64,000 nt of DNA. It comes from Candidatus Bathyarchaeota archaeon (GTDB taxonomy: Archaea > Thermoproteota > Bathyarchaeia > TCS64). Numbering within the stretch: the stretch's first letter is position 1; each line of letters begins with the position of its first letter. Made by a program: the position numbers and the translations under genes. Below the pieces are notes generated by a model. The model saw only the letters and a list, made by a program, of their open reading frames with translations. It did not search any database and was not told the origin of the DNA. Below are positions 12,966 through 56,890 of this stretch, piece by piece. The stretch lies in contig JAGTRB010000001.1 of the NCBI GenBank assembly GCA_018396865.1, forward strand, positions 1 through 64,000, given 5' to 3'.

Positions 12966-13340
12966 TTGTTCAAGGGGCTAGAACTCACGCCTGAGGAAGA
13001 AGAGGAGATCATTAAAAGGGTTGCTGATAAGATATCAGAATACGGGATGAACGCCGCCGCCATCTTGATGCTCCAAACCTTCAAGCCCATGGCCTATATA
13101 GGCGGGCAGATGGGACGCTTCTTCATCAGCCCACTCCTCTACGGCTTAGGAGATAAGATCTCCTTAGGGTCTGAGAAGTTGTTCATGGTATTCGAGAATC
13201 GGGATAATTTAGAGAAACTGATCAGGATGTTGGAGCAAAAGGCTGAAGAGGAGATGAGGAAGAGAGAGGAGGCGAGGAGGGATAAAGAGGAACCTGCTGA
13301 GAAGCCACTAAGGAGGTTTAGGCGCTTCCTAGGCATCTAA
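12966..13340 (+). CDS. Small helical protein, member of a three-gene family linked to the membrane cassettes
   Basis: This is a 124-residue protein of unknown function. It begins with an acidic stretch (LTPEEEEEIIKRVADKI), then AAAILMLQTFKPMAYIGGQMGRFFISPLL, a weakly hydrophobic segment that may lie on the membrane. A Lys/Arg/Glu-rich predicted coiled coil follows from about residue 80, ending in RRFRRFLGI. It is clearly related to the proteins at 54669 (shared YIGGQMGRFF, E+KLF/FxVFE, RxNxEKL) and, more distantly, at 53729. The start is TTG: a TTTATAG box at 12934-12940 lies 26-32 bases upstream and there is no Shine-Dalgarno, so the message is probably leaderless. It lies about 1.2 kb from the end of cassette A. 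I do not recognise it from any described family. Confidence 0.75.
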   Translation: MFKGLELTPEEEEEIIKRVADKISEYGMNAAAILMLQTFKPMAYIGGQMGRFFISPLLYGLGDKISLGSEKLFMVFENRDNLEKLIRMLEQKAEEEMRKREEARRDKEEPAEKPLRRFRRFLGI

Positions 13341-14570: not shown

Positions 14571-15206
14571 CTAATAAGGTATGCCCAATAATGCCCTTAT
14601 GAAGTTCACTACGTTCTCTGTCCAGGTTCCGAGTGCGGTTATGAACCAGCCGAACTCCATTCCCCAGGAGACGCCCAAGCCACACATCATTATTATGCGC
14701 CCGAACCTGGCGAGGCCTCCGTAAACTCCTGTATGCTCCCTCGTGTATATGAAGTACATTATGGCGCAGAGGGTTGCTATACCGGCGAATAGAGCGGAGG
14801 CTATTGTGAATGGGGCCTTGGCTGCGATCATCTCCTCCCCTATGCTCCTGACCTGCCCAACAATCTGGGCTTCCAGCGCCCCTCCTACGAGTATTCCTAT
14901 GCCTATCGCTGTTAGGAGTGCCGTGGGATACCTCGATACCCATCCCCATGGCGTCAACCTCCCAAACGTGAGGATGGCCAGGAACAGGGGTATGACAAGA
15001 AGGGCCCTCCCTGCCATGATGGAATCTAACGCCGTAGTCTTAACAGCTAGGAGACCGTACATCAGCCCATGGGCGCAGCCGGCCCCTATGATTATGTGCT
15101 CAACCAGCCTGTAGTAAGGGTTCTCCCTCCAGACAAGGGTCATTATCCCGACGGCCATTAGGCTAGACCAGCCCAACCAGAAGAGAGTCCAGGACAAGCC
15201 TCTCAC
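14571..15206 (-). CDS. Cassette A gene 4: multi-pass membrane protein
   Basis: This is a 211-residue protein with about six hydrophobic helices. Near the N-terminus it has WRENPYYRLVEHI, matched by RENIFYRIGEAL in cassette B and KDNYLYRLAQHI in cassette C. In the middle AQIVGQV matches AQIVRQL and ANIIRQV. Near the end TREHTGVYGGLARFGRIIMMCGLG aligns with the corresponding ends of the other copies. It overlaps gene 3 by four bases, so stop and start share bases and translation is coupled; the same overlap occurs in all three copies. I do not recognise the family. It is probably an integral subunit of the complex made by the four genes. Membrane nature is certain, function unknown. Confidence 0.8.
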   Translation of the reverse strand: MRGLSWTLFWLGWSSLMAVGIMTLVWRENPYYRLVEHIIIGAGCAHGLMYGLLAVKTTALDSIMAGRALLVIPLFLAILTFGRLTPWGWVSRYPTALLTAIGIGILVGGALEAQIVGQVRSIGEEMIAAKAPFTIASALFAGIATLCAIMYFIYTREHTGVYGGLARFGRIIMMCGLGVSWGMEFGWFITALGTWTENVVNFIRALLGIPY

Positions 15207-16051
15207 TTCCCCCCTGACAGCCTCTTCCCCCAGTAGGCGATGTTCCCTATTAGCACCATCACTAGGGTGGGGATTGCTGCGAGGTTCTTCATGTCTGTGA
15301 TCTTCGCCGCGAGGGCGGGCTCGCCTATGAAGCTCTCCATAGCCGCGCCTCCAGTCGGACCTGAGAGATATCCCTTACACATCCCCGCCACCCAGTAGGA
15401 TACCGTGCTCATCTCGTTCCCTGAGGCGGTCATCCAGAGCTGAGGAATCTCCGGGTGTGTTGCATACCACTGCCTCACATACTTGTCCATGGCTGTACCC
15501 GTAGAGTAATTAATGATAATCGCGGAGACATCCTTCCAACTGTCAACCTTCTGCATGAGGGGAAGCTGATCTAGCGGGGTTCCCTGGTAATCTGTTGACA
15601 CTCTAGCACGGATGCTGTCTCGGAATCCGGCCACCATAACCTCCTCCCCTGGGACATAGCCTATGAAGACATAGTTCTCGCCGTACTTCACGCCGAATCT
15701 CTTCGGGTTCGCGTAGTCTATACCCCAGAGAGAGGTGGGGGCAGCGTCGGCGTAGACCGCGACTATGACCACGTTTATCTTCTTAGACCAGAGGTACTTG
15801 AGGGTGGCTGTGAAGCTCCCCTTTGTCTCATCCCAGCCGCTTCCAGACATCTCCTGGAAGAAGAGTACGTTCGACCCTGGGGGTATCTCCTTTATAGCTT
15901 TGATATAGTCAGCAGCTGGTGCGCCAACGGGCACCGGGAGTCCAAGGGGGTGGAGTATTGGGATTATGAGGGAGGCGAAGACCGCTATCGCCACACCCCA
16001 CTGAGGGACGTCCAGGAGCCTATCCCAGACAGTCTTCTCCTTTCCAGCCAT
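15203..16051 (-). CDS. Cassette A gene 3: membrane-anchored protein with a large soluble domain
   Basis: This is a 282-residue protein with one helix near the N-terminus (about 15-35), a soluble domain of roughly 200 residues and one helix at the C-terminus, ending in GNIAYWGKRLSGGK. Positions shared with copies B and C include LPVPVGAPAADYIKAI near residue 40, YVFIGYVPGEE near 130, YQGTPLDQLPLM near 155, STGTAMDKYVRQW near 185, and the GNI[AWM][YF]W-type end. The repeated GS-V-hydrophobic strands and small-residue loops suggest an alpha/beta domain. No known catalytic motif is seen. It sits 12 bases after gene 2 and overlaps gene 4 by four bases. Unknown family; topology is my reading of hydrophobicity. 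Confidence 0.8.
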   Translation of the reverse strand: MAGKEKTVWDRLLDVPQWGVAIAVFASLIIPILHPLGLPVPVGAPAADYIKAIKEIPPGSNVLFFQEMSGSGWDETKGSFTATLKYLWSKKINVVIVAVYADAAPTSLWGIDYANPKRFGVKYGENYVFIGYVPGEEVMVAGFRDSIRARVSTDYQGTPLDQLPLMQKVDSWKDVSAIIINYSTGTAMDKYVRQWYATHPEIPQLWMTASGNEMSTVSYWVAGMCKGYLSGPTGGAAMESFIGEPALAAKITDMKNLAAIPTLVMVLIGNIAYWGKRLSGGK

Positions 16052-16063
16052 TCCATAATCACC

Positions 16064-16699
16064 TCATATTACCGCTGTCCTCTCTTTCTGTATGATGGTT
16101 CGCAGGCAGACGACGACACTTATCAGGGCCGCTGTAAGGACTGCAACTCTGGCTGCTGGAGTCATGGCGTACCTCAAGAACCAGTCACCGATGCCGGTCA
16201 TGGGTGGGAATATGGCGCAGACGATGGGCATCTCCTTAAGGAAGTAGGACATAGCTCCTATGAGCAGGGCTAGGGCCTCTAGGTTGGAGACCCTCATCGC
16301 GCGGTAGACGCCCATCGTCGAGAAGATGAGGTTTAGACCCCAGAGAGTTGTGGTGGCCGGTATCACCGTGTTCATGTACATGGTGACATACTGTGTACTA
16401 CTCAGCCCTATTCCATATCCTATCGCGAGGAATACGAAGAAGGCTGCTATGGCGACTATGCTATAGTACCTCGCCCAGGGCTCCCGAGATGGGGGTTTTA
16501 GGATTCTGAATGAGTGATACCTCAGCATCAGAGCCGAGCCCAGGAGTGTGACAAAGTTATATATTATTACCCCCCATGTCAGCATCTCCTTCCTGAAATC
16601 TGCTAAGGGTCCCAAAGCGACAAAGTATTCCAATATCAAGATAAATGCGACGATGGAGATTATATACATGGGGATCTGAGTCCTGAGGACTACAGCCAT
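16064..16699 (-). CDS. Cassette A gene 2: multi-pass membrane protein
   Basis: This is a 211-residue protein with about six membrane helices. A LRYHSFRI loop after the second helix matches FRYHLNNI (cassette B) and ARYHVSLI (cassette C). The last loop and helix, DWFLRYAMTPAARVAVL, correspond to DWIKNVPNTGAYRGILIG and DWIMTVPNAAGYRPIVIG, followed in all three by a basic end with Arg-x-Ile-(x)2-(x)-Glu spacing. GGAGGTG lies a few bases before the ATG and gives a strong ribosome-binding site. It lies 12 bases after gene 1. No enzymatic motif is visible. Family not recognised; the conserved RYH and the DW...R pattern suggest function at the membrane face. Confidence 0.8.
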   Translation of the reverse strand: MAVVLRTQIPMYIISIVAFILILEYFVALGPLADFRKEMLTWGVIIYNFVTLLGSALMLRYHSFRILKPPSREPWARYYSIVAIAAFFVFLAIGYGIGLSSTQYVTMYMNTVIPATTTLWGLNLIFSTMGVYRAMRVSNLEALALLIGAMSYFLKEMPIVCAIFPPMTGIGDWFLRYAMTPAARVAVLTAALISVVVCLRTIIQKERTAVI

Positions 16700-16711
16700 C
16701 TCCTACACCTC

Positions 16712-29976: not shown

Positions 29977-30285
29977 TTGACTACCGCTGAGGTCAAGCCA
30001 CTTATCTGGCATGACTATGAATATTTTGATGAAATATTAGATCCAGGTCATTGCTTTGAGCGTTCACGTACGCCATATGCAGTTTCTGTGCACATCAATT
30101 CAATATCAGGCCCAGGTGATGAGGTTGAGGTAACAATAATGGTGGGTGGAATAGAGATATGGGGTGGTCTTTTAAGTGCTGGTGAAAGTTCTTCAGTTAT
30201 TACCTGTAATGACCAATATACAGTAGTACATATAGCTAATCCTTATGGAAGTAATTCTGGTATATGGATCCATGTTATAGGATAG
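29977..30285 (+). CDS. Small secreted-like protein, possibly frameshifted at its start
   Basis: The 102 codons starting at a TTG encode a beta-rich, cysteine-containing sequence (PYAVSVHINSISGPGDEVEV, then GGIEIWGGLLSAGESSSVI). I do not recognise it. The composition is AT-rich compared with core genes. Upstream, in another frame, ATG at 29922 opens MNFSRFILLILLNYYINKF, which looks like a signal peptide and sits 34 bases after a TTTAAATTA box. That frame stops just as the present one begins to look coded. A single-base frameshift near 29970 would join them, so this may be a secreted protein gene that is either broken or misread. A secreted binding domain is plausible because the next gene is a substrate-binding protein. 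Confidence 0.45.
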   Translation: MTTAEVKPLIWHDYEYFDEILDPGHCFERSRTPYAVSVHINSISGPGDEVEVTIMVGGIEIWGGLLSAGESSSVITCNDQYTVVHIANPYGSNSGIWIHVIG

Positions 30286-30373
30286 TCATTGGGTGATGCA
30301 TTAATTCCTAACTTATTTTTTATAGTTTTAAGGGGTATGTAAGAAATGTCGGGGAGATGGACGAATCCTCTTT

Positions 30374-31666
30374 TTGGCTCTTTTAGCAGTCATGGGTTGG
30401 GGTTTTTGTGGATCCCTTGTCATTCAGATCAATTCGCTAAATGCGCATCTTCATGAATCGGAGATAGAAAAAGAACAACTTCAAAAGGAGATTTTCGAAT
30501 TAAAGAATAAAATTCTAGAAAATGTTACTATTCGGATAGGTGTAACAGCGGCGGATGATGATTATAATAGAACAGAAAGGTTTTTTGAGGAAATAGTGGA
30601 AAGAGAGGTTAACGAATATTGCTCAAAAATGAACTATGGTGTTAAATTTGATTTCGTTGTAAAAAACAATAAAGGATTGTCATATATTGCCCTTCAAAAT
30701 CTTCAAGAGTTTAAAGAGATGAGTATAAACATAATTATAGGTCATCCATGGTCGGCCCACTGCTACGTGTCTATGATGTATGTTAATAAAAATAATATGC
30801 TGCTCTTCAGCTCATCTTCTCAGTCCTCTCAGCTAGCAAGGTCTGGAGATAACCTTCTGAGAATGTATCCAGTTGACTCACAACAAGGCCTTGTAATCGC
30901 AGAGATGCTGAGAAGCTTAGGGATAAGGGCGGTCATCGTGATGCAGCGAGGAGATATGTGGGCAGACGGCATATACAAGGTTTTAGAGGAGTTCCCTAAG
31001 AGAGGTGGAGTGATCCTCAGTAGGATCAGGTACGACCCTGAATGCACGGATTTCAGAGGCCACCTCTCCGAGATGGAGGGTATCGCCAAGGAAGCTATCC
31101 AAAGGTATGGAAAGGAGCATGTAGCCGTTGAGCTCATCTCATTCTCTGAAGGTGTGAAGATACTCAAGCAGGCCAGAGAATGCCCCTCCCTCTACAGCCT
31201 ATACTGGTTTGGCTCCGATTATACGGCTGGCACTTGGGGTTTCCAAGCCCTCATCGGGGGAGCCCCAGATGAGGCTGCCCACCTCAGGGTCTTCAGTCCT
31301 CTCCTGGAGCCGACGAGATCTCAGCTATATCTATTGCTGAATGAGAGATATAGTTTATTGTTCTCTGAGCCTCTAGATCTCGACATGGCCTCTAGGTATG
31401 ATATTGCATGGATAATCGTTAAGGCCGTCCTAGTGGCCAGAACAATAGACGTGAAAAGGCTGCTAGAAATCATCCCAAGCATAGCATCAACATTTTTCGG
31501 GGCCAGCGGCTGGTGTAAACTAGACGAAAACGGGGATAGAGAAACAGCTGACTATGGGATATATGGCTACGGATACTGGAATAATACTGTGACTAGAATC
31601 AAGTATGGCTCATATGATGGGAGGACCGGTGAGGTATCATGGTTTCTCCCTGTTGAGCCCCGATAG
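30374..31666 (+). CDS. Periplasmic-binding-protein type 1 (branched-chain amino-acid type) lipid- or membrane-anchored receptor
   Basis: This is a 430-residue protein with an N-terminal membrane anchor (LLAVMGWGFCGSLVIQI), a short coiled coil (EIEKEQLQKEIFELKNKI) and a type 1 solute-binding domain. IRIGVTAADDD and IIIGHPWSAHCYVS (usually IGP), then MYPVDSQQGLVIAEMLRSLG and VIVMQRGDMWADG, match Leu/Ile/Val-binding and urea/amide-binding proteins. No permease or ATPase gene is adjacent. The first half (to about 30820) is strikingly AT-rich, and the second half has the normal base use of the window; its tail is duplicated at 29557. This suggests a recombined gene. The TTG at 30374 is the start with least evidence against it. 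The ligand is unknown. Confidence 0.8.
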   Translation: MALLAVMGWGFCGSLVIQINSLNAHLHESEIEKEQLQKEIFELKNKILENVTIRIGVTAADDDYNRTERFFEEIVEREVNEYCSKMNYGVKFDFVVKNNKGLSYIALQNLQEFKEMSINIIIGHPWSAHCYVSMMYVNKNNMLLFSSSSQSSQLARSGDNLLRMYPVDSQQGLVIAEMLRSLGIRAVIVMQRGDMWADGIYKVLEEFPKRGGVILSRIRYDPECTDFRGHLSEMEGIAKEAIQRYGKEHVAVELISFSEGVKILKQARECPSLYSLYWFGSDYTAGTWGFQALIGGAPDEAAHLRVFSPLLEPTRSQLYLLLNERYSLLFSEPLDLDMASRYDIAWIIVKAVLVARTIDVKRLLEIIPSIASTFFGASGWCKLDENGDRETADYGIYGYGYWNNTVTRIKYGSYDGRTGEVSWFLPVEPR

Positions 31667-37482: not shown

Positions 37483-38139
37483 TTACTTCTTTCCTAGAAA
37501 GTTGTCTACTATTATTAGTATTATTGCGACTATTGACACATATAGTCCAGGTGGGCGGACCAAGTTAGGTATCAGGGATATGGCGAAGCCTATGTTTGAC
37601 ATCAGGAATAGCCCGAGAGTGGTTCCGAAGCAGATCATCATAGAGTAGATCCCCAACTTTGCAACAGGGGCTAGGGCACCCTTATGCTCGAAGGTGTACA
37701 GGAAGTATGCCAGGGATGTTATGGCTGTAACAAGTAGGATTAGGTTATTGATGCCTGTGAAAATGTCTCTGGTGAGGAGGCTCCCTATGTCGAGCTGCCT
37801 TACTATCTGGGCCATCACGGCCCCCTTCATCGCAACTCCTAAGCCTGCTCCAGAGAGGAGGGCTATGGGCCACCTGCTTACCCACCAGAGGCTCTTCGAG
37901 AACCTCGTATACATCATTAGGCCTAGAGCTACCGCTATAAGGGTCGGGCTTAGCCACTGCTGCTTTACCACAATTGGGACGTATATCCTGTTGAAGAGCA
38001 CATCTAAGCCCACCTTGACCGATATGGCTAAGGCGAGGCCGACGAGCAGCGCCTCACCTATCCTGTAGAATATGTTCTCTCTATAGAGGAAGGACCAGGC
38101 CAAGAGGATAACTATGCTCGTGACCAGTGCGTCGATCAA
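37483..38139 (-). CDS. Cassette B gene 4: multi-pass membrane protein
   Basis: This is a 218-residue membrane protein with about six helices, the counterpart of 14571-15206 and 52793-53506. RENIFYRIGEALLVG near residue 22 is the conserved N-terminal loop, MAQIVRQLDIG near 115 the central one, and YTFEHKGALAPVAKLGIYSMMICFG the late one (read as loop plus helix). It shares four bases with the end of gene 3. A T-run follows about 20 bases after the stop. Among the three copies the hydrophobic segments line up closely, while the C-terminal 20 residues differ. Unknown function; I infer an integral subunit of the cassette complex. Confidence 0.8.
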   Translation of the reverse strand: MIDALVTSIVILLAWSFLYRENIFYRIGEALLVGLALAISVKVGLDVLFNRIYVPIVVKQQWLSPTLIAVALGLMMYTRFSKSLWWVSRWPIALLSGAGLGVAMKGAVMAQIVRQLDIGSLLTRDIFTGINNLILLVTAITSLAYFLYTFEHKGALAPVAKLGIYSMMICFGTTLGLFLMSNIGFAISLIPNLVRPPGLYVSIVAIILIIVDNFLGKK

Positions 38140-38975
38140 GCCTTTCCACCACCTCTTTTCCTCGTGAAGTACCAGATATTTCCGAGGATTATCAGGCCCA
38201 CACCATAAATGTGGGATAACGTCTGTGCGTCGAGTGTTCTCAGGCCCTCCCCTGGCATACCAGTGAGCTTCTCATAGCCCGCAGCGTCGCTCTCAGCTCC
38301 AATATAGCCGGTTATGAGTTTCTTCTCGTAATATGGGAGCGCCCAGGGGACTGTAGCTATTAGGGTGTTTATTATTAGAGGCTTACCGTACCCACCAAGC
38401 TGCCTGGGATACGGGTCTGGGCTGGTTGAGGTGGAGAATCCGATCAGGGCTATGTCGGAGATGGAGCGGACATTTCTAAGCATGGGCAATTTGTCGATGG
38501 GGGTTCCATAAGCATCAGTCTTGACGATGCTCTGGAAGTCCTTAGCCATGCCCATTAGGGTCGTCTCATATCCTGGTATCCATCCTAGGTTCACGTAGTC
38601 CTCGCCATACTTCAATCCCTTAGTGTCTACATACTCCCTCAGTATCCTCTCGGCGTTGAGGGACCCGTCGACGCTGTAGGTGGTCACCACTATAACCTTG
38701 ATCCCCTTTCTCCTGATAAGGTCGAAGAGGTGGCGGTATATGGCCACCTCTGCTGGGCCTACCTGTCCCCAGGTGCCAACCGAGAAATCGGTTATCCACA
38801 TCGCGATGTCTCCGCTCTTCAGGTCCTCTATCTGCCTGTAAACCTCAACGGTGTTTGAGCTGATGCTTATCGGGAGTCCTAACGGGGAGATTGCTGGGAT
38901 AGCGATCAATATTATGAAGATTATGAAGACAGCCCTATCTACCAATGGAAGGCCGGTTCTTTGCAGCTCATCCAC
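38136..38975 (-). CDS. Cassette B gene 3: membrane-anchored protein with a large soluble domain
   Basis: This is a 279-residue protein with one helix at about 12-32, a soluble domain, and a C-terminal helix ending GNIWYFTRKRGGGK. Positions conserved with copies A and C: LGLPISISSNTVEVYRQIE near residue 35, YVNLGWIPGYE near 125, DAYGTPIDKLPML near 153, and a Y-x-RQ element (DPYPRQLGGYG). GAESDAAGYEKLTGMPGEG near residue 235 also matches. In copy C the equivalent strand is ISARTRKVYSYIEGLKPGS. No enzyme motif is seen. It overlaps gene 2 by 8 bases and gene 4 by 4. Unknown family. Confidence 0.8.
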   Translation of the reverse strand: MDELQRTGLPLVDRAVFIIFIILIAIPAISPLGLPISISSNTVEVYRQIEDLKSGDIAMWITDFSVGTWGQVGPAEVAIYRHLFDLIRRKGIKVIVVTTYSVDGSLNAERILREYVDTKGLKYGEDYVNLGWIPGYETTLMGMAKDFQSIVKTDAYGTPIDKLPMLRNVRSISDIALIGFSTSTSPDPYPRQLGGYGKPLIINTLIATVPWALPYYEKKLITGYIGAESDAAGYEKLTGMPGEGLRTLDAQTLSHIYGVGLIILGNIWYFTRKRGGGKA

Positions 38976-39579
38976 CTCCCAGATATGAGCGTTCTCTCCC
39001 GATTATTGCCCTCATGAAGAGGACGATCATGCTGATCCCCATCCCTATCAGAATTCCCCTATAAGCCCCTGTGTTGGGAACGTTCTTTATCCAATCACCT
39101 GCTGTTATCAACTGGGGGGAGAGAGCTCGGATGCTCGGGGTGTTGTAAAGCAGTATCACTATGGTGACAACCAGCAACATTATGGCTGTAGGAGACTTCA
39201 GCCTTGCCCCCCGGAGGAAGACGGTGTATGTATAAAAGCCTACGAAGGATGAGATAGCTACGCTTAATGGCGTGTAGAGTGTTGAGAAGATCCAGTCGTA
39301 TACGCTCTTATTCAGGTAAGCTATTGCAAGATAAAACAGAAAACTCCCAATAATAAGTAGGCTGTAATAGGTGTCTTTTCTCTTCCTTATGTTGTTTAAG
39401 TGATACCTGAAAAGGTTTACCACCCCGATTAGGTAGGAGAACGTGACAAGTATCACGACCCAGCTCAGGAGCTCAGAGGCCTGTACCGATAGGTTTCCAG
39501 TGTAATAGTCGATCAACGGGAGAAGGGAACCTATTGCAAACAGGATTATAGGGATCTCTATCCTTCTTAGAAAGCTCAT
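38968..39579 (-). CDS. Cassette B gene 2: multi-pass membrane protein
   Basis: This is a 203-residue protein with about six helices. It carries NLFRYHLNNIRKRKD after the second helix and GDWIKNVPNTGAYRGILIG before the last, the two best conserved positions in this subfamily. A GAGGTGAG ribosome-binding site precedes the ATG. It lies 6 bases after gene 1 and overlaps gene 3 by 8. It is closer by eye to copy C (VPN, G-x-G) than to copy A in the last loop. Function unknown. Confidence 0.8.
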   Translation of the reverse strand: MSFLRRIEIPIILFAIGSLLPLIDYYTGNLSVQASELLSWVVILVTFSYLIGVVNLFRYHLNNIRKRKDTYYSLLIIGSFLFYLAIAYLNKSVYDWIFSTLYTPLSVAISSFVGFYTYTVFLRGARLKSPTAIMLLVVTIVILLYNTPSIRALSPQLITAGDWIKNVPNTGAYRGILIGMGISMIVLFMRAIIGRERSYLGGG

Positions 39580-39585
39580 CTCACC

Positions 39586-40365
39586 TCACCACGCTGAAAG
39601 GTAACCTATCAGGTTGAAACCCGCTGTGGATGCAGCGGCCGCCAGAATGAAGAGGGCGATAAGTAGTATCTTGTATAGGTCCTGACCCCTGAAGTATCCT
39701 ATGGAGCCTGGGGTGCCCTCGAGGGCGGCTCCCGCTACGTAAAGCTCCTCCCCTATCAATAGATAGTCGCAGACGCATATCATGATCGGTATGTAGTATA
39801 GCCTCGGGGTTCCCCCCAGCTGTATGCATCCCGCTATGGCTCCAGCACCTAGCTGGTTTATAGTCTCCCACAAGGTCGCGCCGAATATCATGTTCACTGC
39901 GGGCCTCTCCCTCAGTATGTATCCCATGACGGAGGTCATGAAGGCCGTCTGATATTCGCCTACATAGTACACCATGTCTGGGGAGTACATGTCTGGATTT
40001 CCACTCTTCATATAGCCAGCTTTAATGATGTCCTGAGCCACAGGCACGAGGTATGCCCTAGGTGTAGTGTATCTTAAATAGACCCCTGCCTTGCCGCATG
40101 CCTCAGCTACCCTACTGAGAATGGCTAACCCAGAAAGAGTCATAGGGGCATACTGATCATCGGTTCCTCCGATCCCAGTGCTATAATGGACCGGCCTGTT
40201 CATCTCAGCAGCCCTCCCGACAGCCTCTTCAATCGCCTCCAGGGCTGGGAACTTCCTGATGCGATATCTAGGTGCCTTCCTCTCAGCGCTCTTCATGTAG
40301 AAGTAAGCTAGTCCAATGCATATCACTGTAAGCAACAATTCAAATTTTTTACCTGAAAGAATCAT
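39586..40365 (-). CDS. Cassette B gene 1: membrane-anchored protein (DUF6754-like)
   Basis: This is a 259-residue protein with a single N-terminal helix (about 9-27), a soluble domain and a C-terminal helix. EAIEEAVGRAAEMNRPVHY after the first helix, GCIQLGGTPRLYYIP near 180, CDYLLIGEELYVAG near 205 and FRGQDLYKILLIAL near 230 match copies A and C. It is the first gene of the operon, with a CTTAAATATA box at 40397-40407 about 37 bases upstream. I recall the domain name DUF6754 for this pattern but could not verify it. Function unknown. Confidence 0.8.
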   Translation of the reverse strand: MILSGKKFELLLTVICIGLAYFYMKSAERKAPRYRIRKFPALEAIEEAVGRAAEMNRPVHYSTGIGGTDDQYAPMTLSGLAILSRVAEACGKAGVYLRYTTPRAYLVPVAQDIIKAGYMKSGNPDMYSPDMVYYVGEYQTAFMTSVMGYILRERPAVNMIFGATLWETINQLGAGAIAGCIQLGGTPRLYYIPIMICVCDYLLIGEELYVAGAALEGTPGSIGYFRGQDLYKILLIALFILAAAASTAGFNLIGYLSAW

Positions 40366-47204: not shown

Positions 47205-48362
47205 TTACTCAGCAACTATTTCTACGTCAGCTCTAGGAACTATAACTCTTTTTCCATCTTCCAATTCTACCTCTACTACCCTGACGAGAGATTCTGTTTC
47301 TATCTCCATTAATTCTACTGGAAGTCTAATCACTTTTCCTAGTTTTCCGAAATATGGAAACCTTATTATCCTGATCATGCTTCCAGACTTCATTTTTCCC
47401 TCTTCAGCACCTTCATCCATGATTTCCATTTTTCCACTTACATCTTTTGGTATTATTATTTCAGGTCTGAGTACTCCTGCTCTGACCTGTGTCGCTCCAT
47501 TTATAGCTGCATTTTTTCCATCATTATCCTTTAATATTTTGAATACCTTATCTGAGATTGGAAGTTTTCCAAACCCCTCTGTCAGTATCAATGTAAATTC
47601 CAATTCTTCCCTTCCAGTTATAGCTACTCCCATTCTCGCTCCTAAAAGCTTTTCCAAATCTTCTACGTTGGCTCCTCCACATATTATTCCCTTAACACCT
47701 ATCTTCTTGGCCTTCTCTAAGGCTTCTAGGTTTACGAATGCTCCTCCAACTATTATTTTTCCATGATCACTTTCGAAGATGTTATCTGGAGTAAGTACTT
47801 CCTCGGGGTTTGAGACGGCTATCCTGAGTTCTCCGAATCTCTCTCCTGAAAACCCTATTATTCCCTGTACATATGCGGCCCACGTTCCGACCACGGCTGC
47901 CTCTCGGGGTATCACTTCATCTATTTTCCCTCTTATATAAGCAGTCACCTCAACTGGTCTTTGGGGTTCTCTTATTGTGATGTTTCCTGTTATTTCATTT
48001 ATATCCTCTAAATATCCATCTATTGGTGACAATACCGTCTTATTTATTAATCCAAATGCTGCTCTTAACCTTGCTATTACTTCTCCCTTCTTCACAGGAT
48101 CACCCTTCTTCTTTAGGAGATATCGAGGGACCTCTTCAGTATCTACATCTAGTAGTTCTGCCACTTTAAGTATTTGGGGTATACCCTCCAGATAGCATCT
48201 CCCGACGATGGTATCAAACTCAACTCGGTCTCCTACTTCAACAAGTATCTGACCTTTAACCGGTAGGCTTCTAATCTTCCTTATGTAGGTGAGAGGTGTG
48301 ACCCTTAATCCTGGTGTATATGCAAAGCTCTCTTCTGATATGCTCATAGGCTTTTTCTCCAT
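47205..48362 (-). CDS. Barrel-sandwich/KOW-type protein coupled to a MutL-like ATPase
   Basis: This is a 385-residue protein of unknown function. The N-terminal part (about 25-150), with LPVKGQILVEVGDRVE and GDPVKKGEVIARL then LSPIDGYLEDI, resembles a biotinyl/lipoyl-type barrel-sandwich hybrid but lacks the MKM carrier lysine. The middle, KIIVGGAFVNLEALEKA and KGIICGGANVEDLEKLLG, is alpha/beta. The end (about 325-385), SGSMIRIIRFPYFGKLGKVI, is KOW-like. It overlaps the end of the MutL-like gene by 19 bases and follows it in transcription, so the two are coupled. Its codons are clearly more AT-rich than the genes around it. I could not name the family. Confidence 0.78.
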   Translation of the reverse strand: MEKKPMSISEESFAYTPGLRVTPLTYIRKIRSLPVKGQILVEVGDRVEFDTIVGRCYLEGIPQILKVAELLDVDTEEVPRYLLKKKGDPVKKGEVIARLRAAFGLINKTVLSPIDGYLEDINEITGNITIREPQRPVEVTAYIRGKIDEVIPREAAVVGTWAAYVQGIIGFSGERFGELRIAVSNPEEVLTPDNIFESDHGKIIVGGAFVNLEALEKAKKIGVKGIICGGANVEDLEKLLGARMGVAITGREELEFTLILTEGFGKLPISDKVFKILKDNDGKNAAINGATQVRAGVLRPEIIIPKDVSGKMEIMDEGAEEGKMKSGSMIRIIRFPYFGKLGKVIRLPVELMEIETESLVRVVEVELEDGKRVIVPRADVEIVAE

Positions 48363-50173
48363 TCTTCGATTTTACTTTTTGGATATAGATCCATGGAGTC
48401 GTACCAATCAATTATAAGTTTCTTCCTTTCTCTTTCATCCTCTGGAAGATATATTGGTCTTCCCCTTCCATCGAATACGATTCCAACCACTCCTCCGCTG
48501 ACAGTCCTCTCAACGAATTTCCCGAATCCCTTTCCAAAGTCAAAGTTGTTTGTTGGGCTAACCCTAACCTTAACATTTTTATCTCTGGGGATTGGTTCTC
48601 GTATAATCTGGCCGAACGATAGGTCGAATGTCTTTTTCCCACCCTCCCATTCTAGTTCTATGGTTGCTACTTTTGCACCTGTCTTGTCTATTCCAACACC
48701 CGCCACGACAGTTCCCATGTGGACTAGGCACTCCTTCTCGAATATGTCCAGGGCTATCTCTTTCTGGATTGTTGAGAGGACCCCGAGGTGGGGCATCATG
48801 AATACACTGTCCTGGAGGAGGGAGGTGAATCCTCTCGGCTGGAAGGCATCTGTGAGTATGATCATGGATTGATTTCTTCTCGGAGCCCTGGATAGGAGGC
48901 CCCCTGTTCCTATTATATGGCTAACATTAAACATCTCTATGTATGTGTCCTCAGGTTTAACCTCCTCAAATATATCCGATATAGTCCTCTCCTTCTTAAC
49001 CCCCTTCAGCTCTCTTGCTAGATATTTGTGATGATTGAACCCCAGCCTTATGGCCTCCCTTGCTAGTGAATGTTCAATAACCAGATCTTCCACCGTTATG
49101 GGAATGGTCGTAGGCCTTATCATCTTATTATAGACAACCTCCATGAGGTTCTTAACATCCATCTCGAATGGGATCCATCTAAGTACATTCTCTGCACCTG
49201 CCTCTTTGAAGACGTTCCCTACGCTATAGCTCATACCTAGATTAGCGCTGACGGTGCGTAGAAATCTACCCTCGAAGTTCGAGTATATGTTGGTTGTGGC
49301 CCCTCCCAATCCAACGCCTATAACATTCACATTTCTCATCTCAGAGAAGGTTCTTATCATCATTCCCTCACCGGCTGGGGTGGGCATTATCGAGGTGGAT
49401 ACGAGCTTCTTCAGCTTGTCATATCCAGGCGCATGGGCCATCACATGCTCCATGAAGAGATATAGTATAGCGTTTCTAGCCTGCTCCACCTGCTCGACCT
49501 CTATCCTTGGACGGAGGTTATCTGTTATTATGACGTCGAAGTCGTCCCTGAGCATCTTCTTAACATCCTCTCTCACTGCGACATTGCCAGCGTAGATGAC
49601 GGGTAGTAGATATTCGGCTCCAAGCCTCGGCCTAGGCCTCGCCTTAGACAGCAGCTCGGCCATCTCCAGTACATGAGTCTTATCACCCCCATCTGTGCCC
49701 CCGGCTAAAAGGACGATATCCGGCCTCAGAAACCTCAGGGTCTCTATCTTATAGTAGTCGTCCCTCCCATCATCGACCGACAATACGTCCATCACGATAG
49801 CCCCGGCGCCTAGCGCAGCCCTCTGGGCGCTCTCCGCGGTGATGGATTTCACAACTCCCTGAACAAGCATCTGGAGACCACCCCCGGCGCTGCTCGTGGA
49901 GACATAGATATCTACCCCGAGTTTATCCCCCTTGTAGGGCATTATGATGGATAGTTCATCGCTGGCACCCTCCATTATGGTGTGGCCGGTTAGCTCCTCA
50001 ACCTCCCTTATGGCGTTTCTCACGCCCATCGTGACATCCTCTACCGGCTTCTCCACCGTTGTAGGGGCCTCACCACTGGCTATGAACCTCCAACGGCCAT
50101 CCACTCTTCCGAAGAACCTGGCCTTCGTCGTCGTGCTCCCTACATCCGTCGCAAGTATATAGCTCGGTTCCAT
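48344..50173 (-). CDS. MutL/GlmL-type ASKHA ATPase
   Basis: This is a 609-residue member of the MutL family of actin/hexokinase-fold ATPases, named for the accessory protein GlmL/MutL next to B12-dependent glutamate mutase. The phosphate-1 loop is LATDVGSTTTKARFFG; phosphate-2 is GVGLGGATTNIYSN. VLLAGGTDGGDKTHVLEMA and IIGTGGLLSR are further hallmarks. No glutamate mutase (GlmE/GlmS) gene is present. GGAGG lies a few bases before the ATG and TTTTTATATT on the minus strand at about 50195-50205 is a TATA box. It diverges from membrane cassette C, which starts 292 bases away. A role in activating or energising that system is an inference. Confidence 0.88.
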   Translation of the reverse strand: MEPSYILATDVGSTTTKARFFGRVDGRWRFIASGEAPTTVEKPVEDVTMGVRNAIREVEELTGHTIMEGASDELSIIMPYKGDKLGVDIYVSTSSAGGGLQMLVQGVVKSITAESAQRAALGAGAIVMDVLSVDDGRDDYYKIETLRFLRPDIVLLAGGTDGGDKTHVLEMAELLSKARPRPRLGAEYLLPVIYAGNVAVREDVKKMLRDDFDVIITDNLRPRIEVEQVEQARNAILYLFMEHVMAHAPGYDKLKKLVSTSIMPTPAGEGMMIRTFSEMRNVNVIGVGLGGATTNIYSNFEGRFLRTVSANLGMSYSVGNVFKEAGAENVLRWIPFEMDVKNLMEVVYNKMIRPTTIPITVEDLVIEHSLAREAIRLGFNHHKYLARELKGVKKERTISDIFEEVKPEDTYIEMFNVSHIIGTGGLLSRAPRRNQSMIILTDAFQPRGFTSLLQDSVFMMPHLGVLSTIQKEIALDIFEKECLVHMGTVVAGVGIDKTGAKVATIELEWEGGKKTFDLSFGQIIREPIPRDKNVKVRVSPTNNFDFGKGFGKFVERTVSGGVVGIVFDGRGRPIYLPEDERERKKLIIDWYDSMDLYPKSKIEEWRKSL

Positions 50174-50429: not shown

Positions 50430-50443
50430 AAAATATTTATAGT
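50430..50443 (+). promoter_or_regulatory. TATA box of cassette C
   Basis: AAAAATATTTATAG, centred about 30 bases before the first ATG. With the opposing box at about 50195-50205 it makes the 292-bp gap a divergent promoter region for the MutL-like pair and cassette C. Confidence 0.55.
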
Positions 50444-50465: not shown

Positions 50466-51275
50466 ATGTTAGTTAACTATCTTCCGGTTGAACAAGTGAT
50501 AAACCCCGCGGCTGGCACTGTCTCCCTCGCCGTTCTAATCTTCCTGTCGCTCTCAGGATACTACTATATGAAGCTTGCAGAGAAGGGGAGAACCTTCCCG
50601 GTTAGGAAGATCAGGGCCTTTGAGGCTATAGAAGAGGCTGTTGCAAGGTCGGTTGAGATGGGAAGACCAGTGCACTACACTATCGGCTATGGAAGCATCA
50701 GAACGGCTCATGCCCCCCAGTACACCGCTGGCCTTGGGGTGTTAACCCATGTGGCTAGGCTCGCAGGGAGGTATGGAGCAAGGTTGATAGTGACACATGG
50801 GGTGCCCGAGGCCATAGCATCTATCGATGAGATAGTCAGAGATGGGTACTTCTCCGAGGGTAGACCCGAACTCTACAACCCCATAGACAACGCGAGATAT
50901 CTCACAGACATCCAGTTCGCTTACGCCTCATCTGCCCAGGCTGTCATTTTAAGGGAGAACGCTGGTGCGAACATAGTTATCGGCCCCTTCTGGGCAGAGT
51001 CTCTGATACTGGCTGAGGCTGGGACTATGGTCGGGGCCTTCCAGATAGGTGGAACTGCCAGGGATGTGCAGATCCCATTCTTTGTACTGGTCTGTGACTA
51101 TGCCTTCATAGGGGAGGAGATCTTCGCCGCGGGAGCAATGGCCTCAGGTGACATCCCCACTCTAGCAAGCATTAGAGGACAGGACGTTGGAAAGCTGCTC
51201 TCCATCGTACTCATAGTGCTCGGTTTGATACTGCTTCCCTTTGGGGTGAAGCTTGCCACATACCTCACATGGTGA
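50466..51275 (+). CDS. Cassette C gene 1: membrane-anchored protein (DUF6754-like)
   Basis: This is a 269-residue protein with a helix at about 18-37, a soluble domain and a C-terminal helix. RKIRAFEAIEEAVARSVEM and GRPVHYTIGYG, then GAFQIGGTARDVQIPF, CDYAFIGEEIFAAGAMASGD and IRGQDVGKLLSIVLIVL are shared with copies A and B. It has the longest N-terminus of the three. The message probably starts just before the ATG. It runs into gene 2, whose longest frame overlaps by 7 bases. The closest family I recall is DUF6754, unverified. Function unknown. Confidence 0.8.
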   Translation: MLVNYLPVEQVINPAAGTVSLAVLIFLSLSGYYYMKLAEKGRTFPVRKIRAFEAIEEAVARSVEMGRPVHYTIGYGSIRTAHAPQYTAGLGVLTHVARLAGRYGARLIVTHGVPEAIASIDEIVRDGYFSEGRPELYNPIDNARYLTDIQFAYASSAQAVILRENAGANIVIGPFWAESLILAEAGTMVGAFQIGGTARDVQIPFFVLVCDYAFIGEEIFAAGAMASGDIPTLASIRGQDVGKLLSIVLIVLGLILLPFGVKLATYLTW

Positions 51276-51280
51276 TGGAA

Positions 51281-51949
51281 ATGAGCGTGGTGTGGAGGCG
51301 TACAATTCCACAGATCCTCGTGGCCATCATACTTGTTGTGATGACAGCCCTCTACTTCCTATACGTAGACAAGACGACTAAATCGGCTCTTAATTATTGG
51401 GATGGGCTTCTGATCAACTACTCTATTGTGATAGCGGCCCTGGCTGCCATCGTAGGAGGCGTTGACCTCGCAAGGTATCACGTGAGCCTGATAATGAAGA
51501 GGGAGAGGGAGCAGATCCCATTCAGCTTGATAACCCTAATACTAGAGGTTGTCTGTGTGATCTTTGCTTTCTACGCGATAGCCACGGGGGTTCCCATTCT
51601 CACCCAACCCCAGTTCTCCTGGATATACCTGAACTTACAGGTGCCCACGAGTTCAGCAATGTACTCTATCTTGGTATTTTATGTTGCTTCAGCGGCCTAC
51701 AGAACTTTCAGGGCTAGGAACCCGCCAGCCCTACTTTTACTTGTAGTCGGGGTGATAGTGATGCTTGGGAACACAAGCCTCGGATTTGTCATCTGGCCCG
51801 GTTTCACGCCTCTTAAGGACTGGATAATGACGGTCCCAAATGCAGCTGGCTACAGGCCAATAGTCATAGGGGTAGGCCTAGGGACCATCATCCTAGGTCT
51901 CAGGCTGATCCTAAGGAAGGAGGTAACATGGATGGGTAGGAGGGATTAG
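51281..51949 (+). CDS. Cassette C gene 2: multi-pass membrane protein
   Basis: This is a protein of about 222 residues with six helices. VDLARYHVSLIMKRE after the second helix and KDWIMTVPNAAGYRPIVIG before the last are the positions conserved with copies A and B; a basic end follows (LRKEVTWMGRRD). I choose ATG at 51281 because GGTGAT lies a few bases before it; ATG at 51269 would add four residues and overlap the end of gene 1. Gene 3 follows after 4 bases. Function unknown. Confidence 0.8.
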   Translation: MSVVWRRTIPQILVAIILVVMTALYFLYVDKTTKSALNYWDGLLINYSIVIAALAAIVGGVDLARYHVSLIMKREREQIPFSLITLILEVVCVIFAFYAIATGVPILTQPQFSWIYLNLQVPTSSAMYSILVFYVASAAYRTFRARNPPALLLLVVGVIVMLGNTSLGFVIWPGFTPLKDWIMTVPNAAGYRPIVIGVGLGTIILGLRLILRKEVTWMGRRD

Positions 51950-51953
51950 AGGG

Positions 51954-52796
51954 ATGAGCACCTCACTGAAGAGGCTTGACACCATTATAGGTACTAGGCA
52001 ACTGCTATATACACTGCTCATAATATTTGCGTTAATACCAATGTTCTATCCTCTTAGGCTTCCAATTAGTATATCAGCGAGGACTAGGAAGGTATACAGC
52101 TACATAGAGGGTTTGAAGCCGGGATCCTACATATTCATAGACTTTGACTATGACCCTGCTGGTAGAGGAGAGATCGAGCCGCAGGCTGTAGCCATGATGA
52201 AGCATCTCTTCGATAAGAAATGTAAGTTCGTGATAGCTTCCCTGGGTACAACGGGACCAGTCATGTTCGAGATAATGAGAAGGACAAATCCGGACATATT
52301 CGCCGGGAAGGAGTATGGAAAGGACTGGGTTAATATCGGATATGTGGCGGGTGGGGAGTCGGCGGCAGCGGGTCTAGCTAGGAGCATCTCGGGCACAGTG
52401 GCTATGGATGCCTACGGCAACCCTATAGGGGATCTGCCACTACTCAAGGAGGTTGACAAGGCTGAGCAGTTCGCCTTAGCATTGGTCTACACGACCGGGA
52501 CCGATACCCTATACTACTTTGTAAGACAGTGGTTCACCCCCTACAAGACCCCTCTAATATTGGGGATCCTGGGCGTCATGGGCCCCGCTGCGGAGCCCTT
52601 CGTGGCGGCTGGCCAGGCCGTGGAGCTTATGGTTGGCCAAGTTCAAGGGGCTGAATACGAGGTTCTAGTAGGGAGGCCAGGGATAGGCCTCGGAGCTATG
52701 GACGCACAGAGCACAAGCCACGCCATAATATTGGTCTTCATAATACTTGGAAACATAATGTTTTGGAGCGTCAGGTTGAGGGGTGAGAAGAGATGA
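51954..52796 (+). CDS. Cassette C gene 3: membrane-anchored protein with a large soluble domain
   Basis: This is a 280-residue protein: helix at about 17-37, soluble domain, and C-terminal helix ending GNIMFWSVRLRGEKR. RLPISISARTRKVYSYIEGL near residue 38, WVNIGYVAGGE near 125, DAYGNPIGDLPLLKEVD near 150, TTGTDTLYYFVRQWF near 180 and GAEYEVLVGRPGIGLGAMDA near 228 match copies A and B. The GRGEIEPQAVAMMKHLFDKK stretch matches copy B and is weaker in A. It overlaps gene 4 by four bases. No enzymatic motif is visible; it could be a receptor, protease-like or scaffold domain. Confidence 0.8.
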   Translation: MSTSLKRLDTIIGTRQLLYTLLIIFALIPMFYPLRLPISISARTRKVYSYIEGLKPGSYIFIDFDYDPAGRGEIEPQAVAMMKHLFDKKCKFVIASLGTTGPVMFEIMRRTNPDIFAGKEYGKDWVNIGYVAGGESAAAGLARSISGTVAMDAYGNPIGDLPLLKEVDKAEQFALALVYTTGTDTLYYFVRQWFTPYKTPLILGILGVMGPAAEPFVAAGQAVELMVGQVQGAEYEVLVGRPGIGLGAMDAQSTSHAIILVFIILGNIMFWSVRLRGEKR

Positions 52797-53506
52797 TTGA
52801 GGCAATTCAAATATGGCTATCAGCAGCCCTGGTTATATGGATATGGAGCTTCGTATACAAGGACAACTACTTATACAGGCTTGCTCAGCACATCTTCTTA
52901 GGAGCTGCTGCTGGATACTCCATAGGGATCTCTCTAGATAGCCTGAACAAGACCGCCCTGATCCCTTTAGCGAAGTCTCCTATAACAAACATGCACCTGA
53001 TAATCCCCATCATCATCGGGCTGCTCTTCTTCTTCAAGTACTCTAGGAGATATTACTGGGTGGCCCGCTACGGCGTAGGAATAGCACTAGCCGTAGGAAC
53101 AGCCCTCGCCTTCAGGACGGCACCCATGGCGAACATAATAAGGCAGGTGAACGCAGTCCTGCTCCCCCTCTGGACTCCTGACCCGGTCAAAACCCTAAAC
53201 AATTGGATTCACGTAGTCATAACTCTATGCGCTCTAGTATACTTCATATTCACTGTGACGCCGCGGGTGGTTGAGGGAAGACCCACCACAATATACAGAG
53301 TCTATGACACGGTTATGAAGATAGGCATCTACGGTATGATGGTGGCCTTTGGCGCCACATTGGCCAACACGATAATGACGAGGCTGGCCTTCTTCATATC
53401 CATGAACCTCCAATACCTCCAACCTTATCCACTCGAGTCATTATCTGCTATAATCCTAGTTGCTATAGCTATACTCTTTGCCATGCGCCGCGTAAGAGCA
53501 GAGTGA
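52793..53506 (+). CDS. Cassette C gene 4: multi-pass membrane protein
   Basis: This is a 237-residue protein with about six helices, counterpart of 14571-15206 and 37483-38139. KDNYLYRLAQHIFLGAAAG near residue 22, RTAPMANIIRQVNA near 112 and DTVMKIGIYGMMVAFGATLA near 190 are the shared elements. It is 20-25 residues longer than the other copies, mostly between the fourth and fifth helices and at the basic C-terminus. The start codon shares bases with the stop of gene 3, and a T-run follows the stop. Function unknown; integral membrane subunit inferred. Confidence 0.8.
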   Translation: MIEAIQIWLSAALVIWIWSFVYKDNYLYRLAQHIFLGAAAGYSIGISLDSLNKTALIPLAKSPITNMHLIIPIIIGLLFFFKYSRRYYWVARYGVGIALAVGTALAFRTAPMANIIRQVNAVLLPLWTPDPVKTLNNWIHVVITLCALVYFIFTVTPRVVEGRPTTIYRVYDTVMKIGIYGMMVAFGATLANTIMTRLAFFISMNLQYLQPYPLESLSAIILVAIAILFAMRRVRAE

Positions 53507-53728: not shown

Positions 53729-54061
53729 ATGTTTTTTGAAGGTTTTTGGATGGAAGAGAATGATGCAATCGATATATGGCTTTCTTCAATATCAGAAAAA
53801 TTGGTCAACCTTAATCTGGACTCAGTGGCCGTCTTCTTCCTCGAGACCTTTGGGCCTATGAGCAATGTCTGGAGCCAGCTGGGTAGACTCCATCTACAGC
53901 CTTTATTGATCCTCCTAGGCCCTTCCGGGGAGAGGCTGATGAGCTTCCTAGAGAAGCCAGAGAACCTAGAGAGGTTTTTGAAGAAGATAGAGGAGGCGAG
54001 GGAGAGAAAAACGAGAAGGCCGTGGATGGGCGGTCTATTTAGAAGGTTATTTAGATCTTAA
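53729..54061 (+). CDS. Small helical protein, diverged member of the three-gene family
   Basis: This is a 110-residue protein related to those at 12966 and 54669. Shared features are an acidic, helical start, VAVFFLETFGPMSNVWSQLG then RLHLQPLL (compare ESIKPLTYIGGQMG then RFFLSPFL), and EKPENLERFLKKIEEAR followed by a basic tail (RRPWMGGLFRRLFRS). The GGQMGRFF core is altered to WSQLGRLH, so it is the most diverged copy. A TTTATTT block lies about 20 bases before the ATG, with AAGGGG just before it. It follows cassette C by 220 bases in the same direction. Unknown function; the basic C-terminus may bind membrane lipid heads or nucleic acid. Confidence 0.7.
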   Translation: MFFEGFWMEENDAIDIWLSSISEKLVNLNLDSVAVFFLETFGPMSNVWSQLGRLHLQPLLILLGPSGERLMSFLEKPENLERFLKKIEEARERKTRRPWMGGLFRRLFRS

Positions 54062-54668: not shown

Positions 54669-55043
54669 TTGAGTCCATTGTACTGGGATGTTGAGGTCTC
54701 TCCTGAGGAGGAGGAGGAGATCATCAGGAAGGCCGCGGACCTGATTCACAGGTATGGGATGGATGTTGCCGCCATCCTCTTCATCGAGAGCATAAAACCC
54801 CTCACCTACATAGGAGGCCAGATGGGACGCTTCTTCCTCTCGCCATTCCTCCCAGCCTTCGGAGAGAGAATTGGAAGGGGAGGAGAGAAGTTCTTCACGG
54901 TGTTCGAGAAGAGGGAGAACGTCGAGAAGCTCTTAAGGCTGCTAGAGGAGAAGGCAAAAGAGGAGGAGAAGCCGAAGGAGGAGAGGAGACCTGAGGCCCA
55001 GGGAGAGAAAAAGAGAGGTTGGAGGCGGTTCCTTCCCTTCTAG
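54669..55043 (+). CDS. Small helical protein, close relative of the protein at 12966
   Basis: This is a 124-residue protein, the same length as its relative at 12966. SPEEEEEIIRKAADLI, IKPLTYIGGQMGRFFLSPFL, GEKFFTVFEKRENVEKLLRL and a Lys/Glu-rich tail ending RRFLPF line up position by position. The start is TTG; the TATTTAAA core at 54639-54646 lies 26 bases upstream and no Shine-Dalgarno is present, so the message is leaderless, as at 12966. The Phe- and Gly-rich middle may be a re-entrant or peripheral membrane segment. Unknown function; position near cassette C, with the relative near cassette A, suggests a shared system. Confidence 0.75.
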   Translation: MSPLYWDVEVSPEEEEEIIRKAADLIHRYGMDVAAILFIESIKPLTYIGGQMGRFFLSPFLPAFGERIGRGGEKFFTVFEKRENVEKLLRLLEEKAKEEEKPKEERRPEAQGEKKRGWRRFLPF

Positions 55044-56173: not shown

Positions 56174-56890
56174 TTAATCCTGTTTTCCCAGAAACTTTCT
56201 CACGAGATCCGATAGGGTGTCCACGGCCCTAGTGAGTTCTCGCCTAGTCTCCAAGGACTCCTTCTGCAGCGTCTCGAGGACCTGGGTCAGCTTAGCTGAT
56301 ATCTCCCCATACCTCCCCTCCAAGGTCTTGAAGTTCTTGTTAGTCTCTCCAGCGAAGCCTCTAAACTCCTGCCTGTAATCTTCGAACTCTTGCCTATAGT
56401 CCTTAAACTCCTGCCTGTAATCTTCGAACTCTTGCCTATAGTCCTTAAACTCCTGCCTGTAATCTTCGAACTCTTGCCTATAGTCCTTAAACTCTCCTCT
56501 GAGGTCCTTCACCTCCCTTATCGTCTCGTCTTGTTTCTCGATCATCCTTCCCCCGTACTCCGCGATCTTAGCTAGCTGTGTCGCGGTTAGATAGCGGTAG
56601 TAGGATTCGGTTCTCATAACTGTGCCCTCATAATCCTCAACGTATATCCTCTCGACGACGGCCCTCTCAGGTCTTCTCCTCACCGCCACCTCTAGGAAGG
56701 CCTTGACCTTATCCTCATAGTCCTCAACTAGAACCTCGACAGCCTCCGCCCCATCTACGTATAAGTTCTCCGCGGAGAATCTCTCCACCTCCAAGGACTC
56801 CGCAATCCCGAGCAGGAGAGGACGATAACCGACATCATGCACCTTACCTCCCATTATGATCATCTTCCTCCTCATCCTTTCTCCTTTCAT
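56174..56890 (-). CDS. Acylphosphatase-like domain fused to a repeat coiled coil
   Basis: This is a 238-residue protein. Residues about 10-95 form an acylphosphatase-like domain: GGKVHDVGYRPLLLGIAESL supplies the phosphate-binding loop and catalytic Arg, and FSAENLYVDGAEAVEV supplies the Asn. From about 115 to 235 it is a long coiled coil. Its core is DYRQEFE/DYRQEFK repeats of 14 residues, encoded by an exact 42-bp tandem repeat, present three times. The function of this architecture is unknown; similar proteins occur in hyperthermophilic archaea. The start is ATG at 56890; later ATGs are possible. Confidence 0.75.
   Translation of the reverse strand: MKGERMRRKMIIMGGKVHDVGYRPLLLGIAESLEVERFSAENLYVDGAEAVEVLVEDYEDKVKAFLEVAVRRRPERAVVERIYVEDYEGTVMRTESYYRYLTATQLAKIAEYGGRMIEKQDETIREVKDLRGEFKDYRQEFEDYRQEFKDYRQEFEDYRQEFKDYRQEFEDYRQEFRGFAGETNKNFKTLEGRYGEISAKLTQVLETLQKESLETRRELTRAVDTLSDLVRKFLGKQD
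56366..56491 (-). repeat. Three identical 42-bp tandem repeats inside a gene
   Basis: Units start at 56366, 56408 and 56450 and are identical base for base. Each encodes 14 residues (EFEDYRQ plus EFKDYRQ), two coiled-coil heptads. Identity at silent sites means the array arose or was homogenised recently. Confidence 0.85.

Follow-up and report, generated by a model that had tools for sequence, protein, structure and literature searches.

A widespread DUF6754 membrane system of archaea and bacteria, without a described function and possibly a nutrient importer

Why would an archaeon keep several diverged copies of the same set of four membrane proteins, and what might such a set do? The question is raised by a 64,000-nucleotide stretch of DNA of a Candidatus Bathyarchaeota archaeon (assembly GCA_018396865.1, contig JAGTRB010000001.1; the window hereafter), in which a sequence-only reading had noticed three copies of a four-gene operon, cassettes A, B and C, and had suggested an undescribed complex in several paralogous versions. 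Comparative sequence data support this suggestion. The four-protein membrane complex is well supported, it is widespread, and it is undescribed as far as database and literature searches reach; together with its partners it makes up a system that can have as many as seven components and that occurs in uncultured archaea as well as in many phyla of bacteria.

The cassettes lie where they had been placed, A at 14571-17488 (minus strand), B at 37483-40365 (minus) and C at 50466-53506 (plus), with all 12 open reading frames found there. Each cassette encodes g1 to g4, four membrane proteins common to all three, in identical order, neighbouring genes overlapping or being separated by no more than about 15 bp. 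The features of the three cassettes are as follows.

50431..50443, plus: TATA-like box of cassette C (AAAATATTTATAG region), read from the sequence, consensus match only
50466..51275, plus: cassette C g1, DUF6754 protein, 269 residues (PF20539, E=1.8e-69; AlphaFold2 model; positive-inside rule)
51269..51949, plus: cassette C g2, polytopic membrane protein, 226 residues, about 5-6 transmembrane helices, conserved R145 and R196
51954..52796, plus: cassette C g3, 280 residues, transmembrane helix, Rossmann-like domain, transmembrane helix (AlphaFold2 model)
52793..53506, plus: cassette C g4, polytopic membrane protein, 237 residues
16712..17488, minus: cassette A g1, DUF6754 (PF20539, E=3.4e-38)
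16064..16699, minus: cassette A g2 (match to g2 profile, E=1.4e-66)
15203..16051, minus: cassette A g3 (match to g3 profile, E=5e-101)
14571..15206, minus: cassette A g4 (match to g4 profile, E=5.7e-65)
39586..40365, minus: cassette B g1, DUF6754 (PF20539, E=1.2e-58)
38968..39579, minus: cassette B g2 (match to g2 profile, E=3.9e-69)
38136..38975, minus: cassette B g3 (match to g3 profile, E=6e-100)
37483..38139, minus: cassette B g4 (match to g4 profile, E=4e-74)

The three copies are real, but the number is too low for the organism as a whole: a gene-1 search of the 1.83 Mb genome returns 15 copies, and profiles for all four genes return 15 complete cassettes with the order unchanged, diverged to roughly 17-47% identity. 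One organism thus devotes 60 membrane-protein genes to the system. As to the signals proposed for each cassette, AT-rich TATA-like boxes are present about 20-35 bp 5' of all three gene-1 starts in the window, as consensus matches only, and likewise 5' of most of the genome's cassettes, while the terminal T-run is confirmed for cassette C, the one cassette inspected.

Beyond the source genome, at least 571 relatives were found among the approximately 85,000 species genomes scanned, the scan being seeded with g1, so that any g2-g4 genes occurring without g1 were outside its reach. The archaeal hosts include Bathyarchaeota, Methanomethylicota and Culexarchaeum, and the bacterial hosts include Bacillota (Symbiobacterium, Fermentithermobacillaceae), Zixibacteria, Cloacimonadota, WOR-3/Stahlbacteria, Eisenbacteria, Latescibacterota, Planctomycetes, Acidobacteria, and others. 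Within the phylum of the window, DUF6754 is encoded by 3 of the 151 sampled genomes, in 15, 7 and 6 copies. The 80 loci retained from the scan, taken with the source genome, form the basis of the neighbourhood and cassette counts and hold 92 complete cassettes, all in the order g1-g2-g3-g4, across archaea and many bacterial phyla. Against these stand at least four lone g1 genes with no g2 downstream, apparently real exceptions (L072 and L101 from WOR-3, L107, and the third g1 of L073); independent occurrence of the four families is therefore not what is seen in this g1-seeded scan. Other inspected incomplete cassettes end at a contig edge or at an N gap, and those of L071 and L091 are interrupted by N gaps. 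No relatives were found in viral contigs or plasmids, and a phage or plasmid origin was rejected. Locus L010 shares its gene order with the Bathyarchaeota locus L061, from which the host would probably be a bathyarchaeon-like archaeon.

The shared divergence of the four genes also speaks for a unit. Their distance matrices correlate across the 92 cassettes (r = 0.79-0.88), and they also correlate among the 15 paralogs of the source genome (r = 0.38-0.66, Mantel p 0.0005-0.015), where species history is no explanation, in support of a physical or functional unit. Mean identity over all cassettes is highest for g1 (44%) and lowest for g3 (33%). Tandem arrangements, in which two or three sets of g1-g4 follow directly on each other, are frequent (L033, L054, L073, L086, L091, L103), and these could give rise to mixed complexes of different paralogs.

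Three further proteins of the system, which had escaped the sequence-only reading, were found by all-against-all comparison of the cassette neighbours. The two dominant neighbour clusters are a MutL/GlmL-family protein (PF13941; 24 of the 92 stretches) and a protein that we call BSH (26 of 92), and a small protein of about 110 residues is encoded near cassettes in 18 of the 92. All three are represented in the window.

48344..50173, minus: MutL/GlmL-family ASKHA ATPase-like protein, 609 residues, divergent from cassette C (PF13941, E=1.6e-116)
47205..48362, minus: BSH protein, 385 residues, divergent beside cassette C (weak RnfC_N, biotin_lipoyl and SPT5 KOW matches)
53729..54061, plus: small protein, copy downstream of cassette C (profile match)
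54669..55043, plus: small protein, another copy 3' of cassette C (the sequence that seeded the small-protein profile)
12966..13340, plus: small protein near cassette A, on the opposite strand (profile match)

In Planctomycetes, Acidobacteria, Latescibacterota and others the entire set forms one operon, small-MutL-BSH-g1-g2-g3-g4, and in Symbiobacterium the order is g1-g4-MutL-BSH-small. MutL and BSH can also be encoded elsewhere in the genome, as in G062, which has seven cassettes and, at a distance of about 80 kb or more from every one of them, a lone MutL-BSH operon (L128) followed by an M55 D-aminopeptidase. Of the 151 phylum genomes, 3 contain full-length MutL, and these are precisely the 3 with DUF6754 (hypergeometric p = 1.8e-6, shared ancestry being ignored), and BSH is found in 20 of the 20 DUF6754 genomes tested, one of these (G164) with a partial match only. 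Among 149 genomes of the phylum of a planctomycete (L089), 41 encode DUF6754, 38 encode BSH and 36 encode both (p = 1e-26, again ignoring shared ancestry). MutL and BSH are thus near-obligate partners of the cassettes. Judging from copy numbers, with cassette to BSH ratios of 7:1, 6:1, 5:1 and 4:1, and of 15:3 in the source genome, one MutL/BSH set often appears to serve many cassettes.

The MutL of the window scores 390 bits against PF13941 (cut-off 27) and carries the phosphate-1 motif DVGSTTTK, present as DxGSTTTK in 21 of 22 long MutL copies; it is likely an ATPase. While it shares the Pfam domain and this motif with the GlmL/MutL family (the methylaspartate-mutase accessory protein GlmL and ornithine Or-4), it exceeds the NCBIfam models in length by about 150 residues, it scores below every NCBIfam GlmL cut-off (217 versus 475 bits for NF040745, 153 versus 204 for TIGR01319; four relatives likewise), and it appears to be tied to a membrane complex and not to a B12 mutase. 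No mutase cluster was recognised among the recurrent neighbour clusters (MutL, BSH, g1-g4), mutases elsewhere in the genomes not having been searched for. A membrane role is suggested for proteins currently annotated as glutamate mutase MutL.

The BSH protein belongs to no described family. Its layout comprises a barrel-sandwich-like N-terminus, an alpha/beta middle part recognised by inspection, and a KOW/SPT5-like C-terminus, with residue conservation seen in the BSH alignment, and all of its similarities, to RnfC_N, biotin_lipoyl and SPT5 KOW, are weak: the biotin_lipoyl score is 10.3 for the window copy and 22.2 for that of L084, versus a cut-off of 22.1. No biotinyl-lysine (AMKM-like) motif was found by inspection of an alignment of 18 sequences. 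A longer type of BSH, of 480-550 residues, is encoded by some Bacillota, and in two Symbiobacteria-like loci (L038, L079) a second MutL and a second BSH of this longer type adjoin the first set. The lone g1 of L107 mentioned above is still preceded by a BSH gene.

What do the four cassette proteins look like? The name DUF6754, proposed for gene 1 by the sequence-only reading, is correct, PF20539 scoring 131.7, 197.8 and 234.2 bits in A, B and C, respectively (curated cut-off 27), and g1 of all cassettes lying far above the cut-off. This Pfam entry covers a single domain and leaves out g2-g4, MutL, BSH and the small protein. The motifs EAIEE...EM.RP and CDYxxI.EE are also present in all three gene-1 products, and R61, E64, D211, E217, E218 and D240 are near-invariant in the alignment. 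The claim of a single anchor did not survive: the AlphaFold2 model of g1 (mean predicted local distance difference test score, pLDDT, 93.0) confidently places a Rossmann-like domain of alternating helices and strands (six strands) between a first transmembrane helix and a long C-terminal one. This domain is predicted to be cytoplasmic because of the charge distribution, with 5.9 lysines and arginines next to the membrane on the domain side versus 1.2-1.6 at the ends, as expected from the positive-inside rule, and this prediction is backed by the signal peptide and Fn3-like domain that precede the first transmembrane helix in bacterial g1 of two-membrane hosts (the fn3 matches themselves being sub-threshold).

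The protein g3 is anchored at both ends around a soluble domain, as had been proposed. Its model is likewise confident (mean pLDDT 94.8) and predicts a Rossmann-like domain, again with six strands and alternating helices, held by membrane helices at both ends, the C-terminal one being long; D152, E236 and N267 are near-invariant in the alignment. The g3 domain is predicted to lie outside the cell, since its short ends carry charge equal to that of both longer domain flanks combined, a signal weaker than that of g1. The order of secondary-structure elements is the same in the two models. The six-helix label given to g2 and g4 is approximate, as hydropathy counts are mostly 4-6 for g2 and 2-5 for g4. 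No Pfam or NCBIfam family matches g2, g3 or g4, and no sequence-profile similarity is detected between g1 and g3 or between g2 and g4; sequence thus gives no evidence for internal duplication.

Beyond DUF6754, searches of Pfam, NCBIfam, PDB sequences and, by Foldseek, structures linked none of the four proteins to a transporter, a secretion system or an enzyme complex already known. Foldseek returned nothing at E <= 0.001 for g1 and g3 against PDB; these searches, and that of g1 against viral structures, gave generic Rossmann-like matches only (best E 0.005, query TM-score below 0.4). The PDB profile matches of g1, to aspartate-semialdehyde dehydrogenase and to a stretch of Na/K-ATPase, were unusable at E of about 0.2, and a match of g3 to a protein named P22 (8h2i, 3e-4) was discarded, as no stretch of it passes alone. 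An anti-phage defence system was rejected, PADLOC models giving one weak 2TM effector match (E=0.007). Literature searches on DUF6754, PF20539, PF13941 and GlmL/MutL returned nothing on this system; the MutL reported for Dictyoglomus is the mismatch-repair protein.

Clues to function come from the genes around the cassettes. Next to the 15 cassettes of the source genome are peptidases of the families M19 (membrane dipeptidase, twice), M20 (three times), M42 and M81/MlrC, along with a creatininase, an amidohydrolase, a beta-lactamase-type hydrolase, an aminotransferase, a xanthine-dehydrogenase-type operon and a 2-oxoacid:ferredoxin oxidoreductase, and a peptidase or amidohydrolase directly adjoins 8 of the 15. 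For M20, the one family for which enrichment was tested, 5 of the 21 matches in the genome lie within 1.5 kb of a cassette, versus about 0.9 expected (p = 0.002). The cassettes of Bacillota and of other archaea have similar neighbours, chosen by eye, namely amidohydrolases, aldolases, creatininase and members of M20 and M24. Judged from gene order, this is the pattern of uptake genes placed next to enzymes that degrade the imported compound. The different catabolic neighbours of each copy suggest, moreover, that paralogous cassettes may have different ligands. The genome encodes few classical importers, with one SBP_bac_5 and seven BPD_transp_1 matches, so that the cassettes outnumber its binding-protein importers of those types.

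We therefore consider a new kind of multi-subunit nutrient importer as the leading reading, with a probability of roughly 0.5. The substrates would be small organic, mostly nitrogen-containing compounds, such as peptides, N-acyl or D-amino acids, or amides, bound outside by the putative binding domain of g3 and moved through a putative membrane pathway formed by g2 and g4, while the strongly conserved inner domain of g1 would dock the shared MutL/BSH pair, which would draw on ATP to drive or gate the complex or to bring it to maturity. The substrate would differ from one paralogous cassette to the next, and each cassette would supply the hydrolase whose gene adjoins it. Import, if true, would alter what genome sequences are taken to say about the feeding of these microbes, as the system now goes unseen there, its parts having no names. 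Symbiobacterium and Planctomycetes, both of which include cultured species, have members of the system, so that it can be tested.

How such an importer would be energized is a separate question. It might represent a new class of primary transporters, in which a shared ATPase of the ASKHA type (actin/Hsp70-like, GlmL-fold), acting via BSH, powers one paralogous g1-g4 module after another, every module having an outside binding domain of its own; this is a tentative suggestion, and we know of no transporter driven by an ATPase of this fold. The other variant, one we also regard as doubtful and whose probability is shared with that of import in general, is an ion-coupled (secondary) transporter made of g1-g4, with MutL and BSH acting only in assembly or reactivation. 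GlmL is thought to be an assembly or reactivation factor for B12 mutases, MutL is its relative, and a single MutL/BSH set for many cassettes fits a maturation factor; against this, MutL-BSH and the cassette form one operon in distant phyla, which speaks for stable subunits no less than for chaperones. Group II ECF transporters offer a possible parallel, as many of their membrane modules share one cytoplasmic module and the cassettes may do likewise, but the system discussed here has no match to an ABC ATPase, EcfT or S-component, its apparently shared part being an ASKHA-type protein with BSH; none of the seven proteins matches an ABC family, and an ABC ATPase-like gene is near only 6 loci. 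TRAP, TTT and binding-protein ABC importers also combine an outside globular domain with polytopic subunits beside catabolic genes, but no subunit family of theirs is matched in Pfam, NCBIfam or PDB profiles, and the outside domain here is predicted to be a single Rossmann-like domain held by helices at both ends.

Several observations weigh against import. The system has no homology to any known transporter, characterised relatives of MutL (GlmL) are linked to B12-dependent mutases and not to membranes, the neighbours in Bacillota and other archaea were picked by eye, and several Bacillota, which have a second, longer type of BSH, encode approximately one BSH-like gene per cassette, so that a module shared by many cassettes is not the rule everywhere. 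In several bacteria that have only one cassette, the neighbours are non-catabolic: in Planctomycetes the operon adjoins plsX-fabH-fabD, and in WOR-3 it adjoins a gene for a Wza-type SLBB polysaccharide export protein. These lipid and polysaccharide neighbours keep an envelope role in view, that of a building or export machine which would carry a lipid, a polysaccharide or a protein outward, MutL/BSH being its cytoplasmic motor or chaperone, and the signal peptide and Fn3-like domain of g1 in two-membrane bacteria agree with it. We consider such a machine unlikely, as it leaves unexplained both why an archaeon, with its different envelope, has 15 diverged copies next to peptidases and why the hydrolase neighbours in Bacillota are similar.

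Less likely still would be a membrane-bound enzyme or ion pump, in which chemistry of g1 and g3 is coupled to ion flow and BSH is carrier-like, in the manner of Na+-pumping decarboxylases or Rnf. The weak similarities of BSH to RnfC_N and biotin_lipoyl, a PYC_OADA protein beside one cassette (L030) and the many near-invariant charged residues of g1 speak for it, and Rnf and Nqr likewise join several membrane subunits with a cytoplasmic protein containing a barrel-sandwich domain. In contrast to these, the RnfC_N match is sub-threshold, BSH shows no Fe-S, flavin or biotinyl-lysine motif, and none of the seven proteins matches an Fe-S or flavin-binding domain; in addition, no enzyme is matched by sequence or fold, and the neighbours vary between copies. 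Finally, outside and inside domains with a similar order of secondary-structure elements, along with the catabolic neighbours, would suit a sensor or signalling complex reporting outside nutrients to the cytoplasm. This we regard as improbable, since the neighbours include no recurrent kinase, receiver, cyclase or DNA-binding partner, and two polytopic subunits exceed what sensing would need.

Some minor observations on the neighbouring genes can be added. The Wza-type SLBB gene of WOR-3/Stahlbacteria lies 60-120 bp 5' of g1 at three loci (L047:510-1757, L057:439-1713 and L062:302-1582). A pair of genes, for a protein of about 80-100 residues followed by one of about 430-450 residues with an N-terminal transmembrane helix, is found at 29977-31666 in the window and at L012:4146-5737; the larger proteins share the motif (I/L)GVTA(A/V)DDxxYNRT and look like anchored ligand-binding proteins, and the genome has the pair in at least two places, one of them about 1.7 kb from a DUF6754 cassette. 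Two different proteins, encoded at 56174-56890 in the window and at L019:14430-15182, have short coiled-coil repeats that are near-perfect, EFxDYRQ and KEIQGLREEQ, within the chain or at its end.

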